In this document: one piece after another, positions 18,931 to 19,610 of the stretch
Numbering within the stretch: position 1 is the stretch's first letter
How the letters are laid out: each line of letters begins with the position of its first letter
Assembly (NCBI GenBank): GCA_947627345.1
Contig: CANQVS010000010.1
Coordinates: forward strand, 1-64,000
Direction: 5' to 3'
Length of the DNA stretch: 64,000 nucleotides
Origin: an uncultured Clostridia bacterium
GTDB taxonomy: Bacteria > Bacillota > Clostridia > Oscillospirales > Acutalibacteraceae
Position numbers and translations under genes: made by a program
The notes under the pieces: model-generated
What the model was told of the DNA's origin: nothing
The model's input: the letters and a program-made list of their open reading frames with translations, nothing else
Database searches by the model: none

Positions 18931-18959
18931 TTGCCAAATTCGAGTTTAAGTGGTACAAT
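18931..18959 (+). promoter_or_regulatory. Promoter of the structured leader RNA
   Basis: -35 TTGCCA (18931-18936), 17-bp spacer, -10 TACAAT (18954-18959). Transcription would begin at or inside the first strand of the P1 helix. Confidence 0.8.
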
Positions 18960-18963
18960 AGCC

Positions 18964-19112
18964 CTGCGACATATCTTAATAACCAGTTATTTATCGTAAC
19001 TTCTGTAAAAGTACGATTTATCGTGCTGTTTTCAGGGGATACTTGTATTTGTAAAAATGCAAGCCTCAAAGTCTCCTGAACGCAAGTTACGGTTACTAAA
19101 GATATGTCGCAG
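18964..19112 (+). ncRNA. Structured leader RNA, riboswitch-like aptamer candidate
   Basis: Folding by eye gives a closed multi-helix domain. P1 is 14 perfect bp (18964-18977 with 19099-19112). P2 is TAACC/GGTTA (18980-18984 with 19091-19095). P3 is GTAACTT/AAGTTAC (18996-19002 with 19084-19090), with an 11-nt left bulge. P4 is a hairpin AGTACGA/TCGTGCT (19010-19027). P5 is TTCAGGGGA/TCTCCTGAA (19031-19039 with 19072-19080), capped by P6 CTTGTATT/AATGCAAG (19042-19063). P4, P5 and P6 each contain one G-U pair. The 3' strand of P1 is also part of an antiterminator downstream. I could not match it to a riboswitch class I know; a 6S-type RNA is less likely. Confidence 0.75.
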
Positions 19113-19161
19113 TATCTGAGGTTTGTGTTTTATGCGCGGTTCCTCGGAACTGCGCTTTTTT
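19108..19161 (+). promoter_or_regulatory. Terminator/antiterminator switch ahead of the SLOG gene
   Basis: Terminator: GCGCGGTTC/GAACTGCGC (19134-19142 with 19147-19155), loop CTCG, then six T. Alternative helix: CGCAGT-(A)-TCTGAGG (19108-19121) pairs over 13 bp with CCTCGGAACTGCG (19142-19154). It uses both the P1 3' strand and the terminator 3' arm. P1 plus terminator and the antiterminator therefore exclude each other. This is the logic of an OFF-type transcriptional riboswitch. Confidence 0.75.
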
Positions 19162-19175
19162 ATTTGGGATTTATT

Positions 19176-19610
19176 ATGTTTTGTTGCGGGTTTGGGCATA
19201 GAGATGTATTCAGCAAAATAGACGATGAGTTGGACAAGGCGATAGCTGATGCTGTCGCTTTAGGATGTGATACGTTCTATACAGGAGCTATGGGAGAATT
19301 TGACGTCTTGTTTTCATCAGCCGTCCTCAAAGCGAAAAAGTCCAACCCCGACATAAAACTCATTTGTGTTAAACCGTATATGACTAAGGAAATCAACGAA
19401 AACAAGGCCTACTACAATGCTATGTATGACGATGTGATGATTCCTACAGAATTGATTGGTGTTTATCATAAGGGAGCTATTAAAGCGAGAAACCGCTGGC
19501 TTGTCGATAACAGTGATGTTATAATCGGATATATAATACGGGATTACGGAGGAGCATACACCGCGGTTAAATACGCCGAGCGTTTGAACAAAAAAATCTT
19601 TTATCTTTAA
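19176..19610 (+). CDS. SLOG-family (DUF1273-like) Rossmann protein
   Basis: SLOG proteins are Rossmann-like nucleotide or nucleotide-sugar binders of mostly unknown role. The 144-aa product shows the family opening 'CCGFGHRDVF', then 'CDTFYTGAMGEFD', 'KARNRWLVDNSDVIIGYI' and 'DYGGAYTAVKYAERLNKKIFYL'. The ORF track start (19104) lies upstream of the leader terminator and overlaps it. ATG 19176 is just past the terminator with a weak GGGA, so I chose it. The gene is alone on the plus strand between two minus-strand ribosome-maturation blocks. It is apparently controlled by the leader RNA. No signal peptide or membrane segment is seen after the corrected start. Ligand and function are unknown. 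Confidence 0.85.
   Translation: MFCCGFGHRDVFSKIDDELDKAIADAVALGCDTFYTGAMGEFDVLFSSAVLKAKKSNPDIKLICVKPYMTKEINENKAYYNAMYDDVMIPTELIGVYHKGAIKARNRWLVDNSDVIIGYIIRDYGGAYTAVKYAERLNKKIFYL

Follow-up and report, generated by a model that had tools for sequence, protein, structure and literature searches.

Riboswitches for c-di-GMP (GEMM) occur in multiple copies per genome and lie upstream of genes for secreted and adhesin-type proteins. In the P4 CI RNA and in c4 of P1/P7, one segment is complementary to two others of the same leader, and the gene downstream is controlled by these pairings. The leader RNA that we describe here is like the GEMM riboswitches in being multi-copy and in standing ahead of secreted-type genes, but its family has no Rfam match, and the host genome (G000) contains several copies and no GGDEF match. 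With P4 CI and c4 it has in common that one segment has two complementary partners in the leader, but there is no Rfam C4 match, and the segments coevolve within each locus and not in common to the copies of a genome. Transcriptional OFF riboswitches with pseudoknots (preQ1, ZTP and similar) are comparable in leader position, own promoter, structured domain, competing antiterminator and terminator, and a pseudoknot-like contact to the expression platform. The family differs from them in that it matches no Rfam class, and in that its switching strand copies a strand of the apical hairpin, which it can displace over 15 bp. Type III toxin-antitoxin loci, finally, have the same sequence of promoter, RNA, terminator and small gene, whereas the family is without repeats and without a ToxN-like toxin, and is followed by many different genes.

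The window, i.e. the whole analysed stretch of 64,000 nucleotides from an uncultured Clostridia bacterium, contains this RNA in front of a gene for a YpsA/SLOG-like protein. Judging from sequence comparisons, it is likely that the window RNA belongs, as a divergent member associated with SLOG, to an unclassified and class-wide family of leader RNAs that attenuate transcription in cis and whose linker may be captured either by the apex (OFF) or by the terminator (ON).

Results

Architecture of the leader in the window

All elements lie on the forward (+) strand. The sigma-A type promoter that an earlier note on this DNA had claimed was found by sequence and tools at 18931-18959 (TTGCCA-17-TACAAT, with TG ahead of the -10 element). 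At about +1 begins the 5' strand of P1 (CUGCGACAUAUCUU, 18964-18977), which forms the perfect 14-bp helix described in that note with the 3' strand AAGAUAUGUCGCAG (19099-19112; -21.0 kcal/mol), and pairing energies indicate that this 3' strand can, via GCAG, also lengthen the antiterminator. P1 is followed by the hinge region J1/2 (UAAUAACC, 18978-18985, with approximate boundary), which homologue comparison and a loop census identify as the counterpart of the consensus (U)GAAUA. Side hairpin and capped arm, which had also been read from the letters, appear together with a middle stem in the fold inside P1: the side hairpin corresponds to the region GUACGAU-UUAU-CGUGC (19010-19027), and the upper stem P4 (UUCAGGGGAU / GUCUCCUGAA, 19031-19082) encloses the apical hairpin P5 (CUUGUAUUUGUAAAAAUGCAAG, 19042-19063; -8.5 kcal/mol) together with its 3' bulge. 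The RNA (153 nt) folds with -57.5 kcal/mol in comparison to -27.2 +/- 3.4 kcal/mol for shuffled sequences (z -8.97), and z is -7.44 when the terminator is folded along with it. The window RNA is single and has no short tandem repeats.

The intrinsic terminator (GCGCGGUUC-CUCG-GAACUGCGC plus T-run, 19134-19161) is supported by a terminator call, by pairing energies and by the family copies. Its hairpin (19134-19155) has -15.7 kcal/mol, and the ATG of the SLOG gene at 19176 lies 14-20 nt downstream, which agrees with the terminator-before-SLOG arrangement noted earlier. The gene (19176-19610) encodes 144 amino acids, and the protein matches Pfam YpsA with 23.1 bits, which is below the curated cut-off of 27.7 bits; none of the solved structures resembles it by sequence. 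A SLOG paralog in the same genome (L036, G000:C28:16155-16517) is 76% identical to the window protein, contains an in-frame TAA and is probably a pseudogene.

The ortholog of a sister species (rimM-linked locus, L043/L160) differs from the window at 13 of 203 nt. Eight of these differences are at paired positions, pairing is retained in all eight cases, and none of the 13 is in the linker or the terminator. They include G-U changes that retain the side hairpin and, at position 19037 in P4, a change from G-U to A-U in the ortholog. An Rfam scan of the window RNA gave no family at threshold, and relaxed thresholds yielded chance-level matches alone, in line with the earlier statement that no known class was recognized.

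Two alternative pairings of the linker

Between P1 and the terminator lies a switching linker (UGAGGUUUGUGUUUU, 19117-19131) that is complementary to the apex and to the terminator 5' arm. Its apical partner is the P5 3' strand with the adjoining bulge (AAAAUGCAAGCCUCA, 19054-19068), which is assigned by this complementarity and by coevolution with the linker. The resulting helix X comprises 15 bp without any bulge and has -18.2 kcal/mol vs -8.5 kcal/mol for P5, and we propose that CCUCA within the P5 3' strand and bulge serves as toehold. In the alternative pairing, UCUGAGG (19115-19121) pairs with the 5' arm and loop of the terminator (CCUCGGA), and this antiterminator is lengthened by the P1 3' strand (GCAGU:ACUGC) to a total of -24.8 kcal/mol; the extended antiterminator hairpin likewise ends at the T-run, which is a caveat on its read-through effect. 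P1 at +1, an apical GUAAAAAUGCA motif, the linker with complementarity to apex and terminator, a GUGUUUU linker and the terminator are thus all present in the window leader.

The earlier note had proposed a switch in which the P1 3' strand and the terminator 3' arm pair, with the architecture of an OFF switch. The antiterminator is real and excludes the terminator, and the position as a cis leader stands as well, but the switch is more complex than this, and the 15-bp helix X had been overlooked.

A multi-copy family in gut Clostridia

As BLASTN searches for close DNA relatives gave almost no homologues, homologues were sought at SLOG neighbors and then by covariance models. Upstream of related SLOG genes (L010, L026, L043, L065, L073, L084, L087), very different sequences were found that share one plan: a promoter and a closed rod with or without a side hairpin, then an apical hairpin, the terminator and the ATG. 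The side hairpin is present in the window, L010, L026 and L073, and minimal members are without it. P1 came out misaligned when divergent members were aligned with MAFFT, and the first covariance model (R1) was therefore built from a seed of three members; a second covariance model (R2) followed. Within the genus, which is Ruminococcus-like to go by those SLOG relatives that carry names, the R1 census detected copies in 100 of 161 genomes, a single genome containing as many as 15. R2 found the family in an order sample at E<=0.01 (88 of 295 genomes and 53 of 148 genera) and in a class sample at E<=1e-4 (59 of 291 genomes and 36 of 181 genera). The host genome contains six significant copies besides the window RNA, and isolates with copies include Ruminococcaceae bacterium P7 and Lachnoclostridium sp. 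MSJ-17.

The window RNA itself is scored weakly by the models (R1: 24.4 bits, E 0.3; R2: 22.1 bits, E 0.19, at exactly 18964-19132), and it was not returned in the genome-wide model search of the host at E<=10. As the scores are weak, its assignment as a putative divergent member is based on architecture, exact position and ortholog. The family is absent from Rfam 15, with no match to any class, and no description was found in the literature searched, with supplements and subscription papers outside reach; a plasmid search with a consensus member gave no match. The RNA, which had been regarded as an orphan, probably belongs to a previously unclassified, multi-copy family that is found across many gut Clostridia.

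Family anatomy and covariation

In the homologues, P1, P4 and P5 covary, as 95.4% of the cells are paired and both-sided changes occur in 14 of 23 pairs, which was reached in 0 of 500 shuffles, and slid controls were far lower. Minimum-energy folds, which give approximate lengths, indicate a P1 of 15 bp in the median (10-90% range 13-19) and an upper stem of 15 bp (12-19). Between these stems there is a 5'-side loop of about 4-8 nt, often GAAUA, with little on the opposite side, and P5 is followed on the 3' side by a bulge of about 14 nt. The GAAUA hinge and a CAAUC spacer recur but are short, and conservation of unpaired positions is modest for a small-molecule aptamer. The two stems of about 15 bp and the GAAUA hinge suggest a bent rod. 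Promoters are found 2-12 nt ahead of the model start in 56 of 82 copies vs 4.3% of shuffles, and terminators follow 78 of 82 copies vs 1.6% of shuffles, and neither element belongs to the covariance model.

Four copies (L133, L154, L145 and L108) lack the 3' arm of the terminator. L133 and L154, which come from different genera, are followed by almost identical sequence, and L145 stops at a contig end.

Coevolution of both pairings

Throughout the family, the linker (consensus GGAGCUAUGCGUUUUU) has two complementary partners, namely the 5' arm and loop of the terminator and the P5 3' strand with the adjoining bulge (consensus AAAAAUGCAUGCUC). The latter pairing is found in nearly all of 67 non-redundant copies, with a mean of -15.95 kcal/mol vs -13.48 kcal/mol when partners are permuted, and the linker:terminator pairing of these copies has a mean of -14.45 vs -13.02 kcal/mol; in both cases 0 of 2000 permutations reached the observed value, and reversed and unrelated controls were flat. 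Shorter elements support the coevolution as well. Permutations ignore the kinship between genomes, and much of this is taken away by a test within single genomes, in which own partners again paired better than permuted ones (-12.66 vs -10.88 and -13.28 vs -12.03 kcal/mol; 0 of 2000 each). This preference for own partners within a genome argues for an action in cis.

Individual positions change in the same way. At one bulge/linker position, G:C or G:U alternates with A:U (Fisher p 0.0004), and L212 shows joint changes of linker, apical strand and terminator arm. In the alignment-based count, helix X is paired in 93.4% of cells, with 14 cells showing both-sided changes (0 of 500 shuffles) and a covariation score reached by 0 of 500. 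The number of pairs with both-sided changes was reached by 141 of 500 shuffles, so that this alignment count is the weaker one, with the same direction as the permutation tests.

Downstream genes, arrays and gene-less copies

A sequence resembling a ribosome binding site with an open reading frame follows on the same strand within <=60 nt of the T-run in 82 of 133 copies (median 23.5 nt), and in about 38% no gene lies this close. Some copies occur in arrays or alone. About two thirds of the downstream reading frames (53 of 82) begin with a signal-peptide-like sequence according to a simple heuristic. The downstream genes mainly encode secreted BspA-LRR, lectin and Ig-like proteins and lipoproteins, and also HTH regulators. 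Family matches of 72 such proteins, drawn from the census, are LRR_5 (BspA-type) in 16, Big_2 in 5, HTH_3 in 5 and YpsA/SLOG in 3, the window being one of these three, and others are lectins, CHAP, M23 and zinc ribbon proteins. No regulator gene accompanies the family copies throughout. At L003/L042 (G013), the family RNA and terminator are not accompanied by SLOG, and a gene for a predicted secreted protein follows.

Viewed from the side of the protein, most close SLOG relatives have no family RNA upstream, and SLOG genes are mobile. In L046-L051, L054-L064 and others, there is often an apparent divergent gene for a small HTH or ribbon-helix-helix regulator upstream, as judged by eye. SLOG as the general target was thus discarded, as close SLOG genes mostly have the divergent regulator and most RNA copies precede other genes. 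The tie to SLOG that had been assumed for the RNA does not extend to the homologues, and the nucleotide ligand derived from it is unsupported: SLOG is a recurrent but minor target among genes mainly for secreted proteins, and the ligand therefore cannot be guessed from it.

Some copies occur in tandem arrays with a spacing of about 200-250 nt, or without a gene. At L162 and L163 (G136), L212 (G297) and L177 (G169), two to three complete promoter-RNA-terminator units with this spacing precede one gene, and at L185 (G015) three RNA-like units are arranged back to back with a spacing of about 118 nt. At L043 and L084 (G136), tandem RNA units carry an identical truncated SLOG piece of 41 residues ending in FYTEAFD*. 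Promoters and terminators of these units are near-identical, the RNA bodies differ strongly, and the last L043 unit has the full SLOG gene. These cut SLOG pieces show that the RNA can increase in copy number in the absence of a complete SLOG gene, and they leave room for a role in trans. Family copies were also found on phage-like contigs. Two fecal phage records (MT835845.1, MT837627.1) resemble a family member with 75.6-79% identity, and seven IMG/VR contigs (L227-L233) carry the apical motif.

Discussion

Proposed mechanism

The family appears to be riboswitch-like and would work like a transcriptional OFF switch, in which the alternative pairings are likely to decide on termination. Each copy would consist of its own promoter, a bent rod closed by P1, a switching linker and a terminator, with a gene just downstream in most cases. 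In the OFF state, the linker would pair with the P5 3' strand, with helix X being started at the adjoining bulge, and the terminator could form. In the ON state, the linker would occupy the terminator 5' arm, the terminator would be blocked, and the polymerase could read through. As helix X crosses P1, the rod must fold back for this pairing, and the similar stem lengths together with the one-sided hinge may well make such a fold-back possible. A bending at the GAAUA hinge would bring the linker and the apical strand together, and the balance would be tipped by a ligand, which is probably a small molecule or an ion, though a protein is possible as well.

A more far-reaching reading, which we regard as slightly less likely than not, is that the family is a putative new riboswitch class of gut Clostridia with up to 15 copies per genome, in which one signal, acting through a folded-back rod and toehold strand exchange, would govern genes for secreted and adhesin-like proteins and genes of mobile elements as one regulon. 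In analogy to GEMM one might think of c-di-GMP, but this is unlikely as a general ligand, because no GGDEF match was found in the host genome, nor in the RNA-carrying genomes G470, G527, G531 and G541.

What alternatives exist for this switch? The same attenuator might respond to a protein or another macromolecule, such as an RNA-binding protein or an antitermination factor. Fixed stem lengths, variable helix sequences and few conserved unpaired bases would suit a recognition of shape, but a constantly linked regulator gene is missing, and the conserved hinge and spacer could equally make a small aptamer, so that we consider a macromolecular signal possible but doubtful. A released leader might also act in trans as an antisense RNA, its apical strand binding to the linkers of other copies in a way known from P4 CI RNA and P1 c4. 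The apical strand is indeed antisense to the linker, and the many copies per genome, the tandem arrays, the gene-less copies and the occurrence on phage-like contigs would fit well with such an action. However, linkers pair better with the apical strand of their own copy than with apical strands from elsewhere in the genome (0 of 2000 permutations), and the fixed spacing at which genes follow favors cis as well, which renders the antisense model improbable.

A type III toxin-antitoxin-like unit, with the RNA as antitoxin, the terminator, and SLOG as effector, is still far less probable. The order of promoter, RNA, terminator and small gene is the same, and SLOG genes, which are mobile, often have a small regulator gene as partner in place of the RNA, but the same RNA precedes many unrelated genes that mainly encode secreted proteins, the short tandem repeats are lacking in the window RNA, and by sequence SLOG is not a ToxN-type nuclease. 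The remotest of the alternatives is a second 6S RNA that happens to precede a gene. A long closed rod, a similar length and an own promoter would be in line with this, and a 6S match had been named in the earlier note as an observation that would speak against a switch, but the window RNA does not match RF00013, the family reaches 15 copies per genome with downstream genes, and the 6S RNA of the host genome lies elsewhere (C13, 57.8 bits), so that 6S was rejected.

For the attenuating leader with its two-way linker, the triple competition of strands can be read from the sequence, and the family may be a leader RNA in which nature makes use of toehold-type switching. That an RNA family this common is missing in Rfam 15 and in the literature searched points to a widespread signal that may govern surface and secreted proteins in gut Clostridia.
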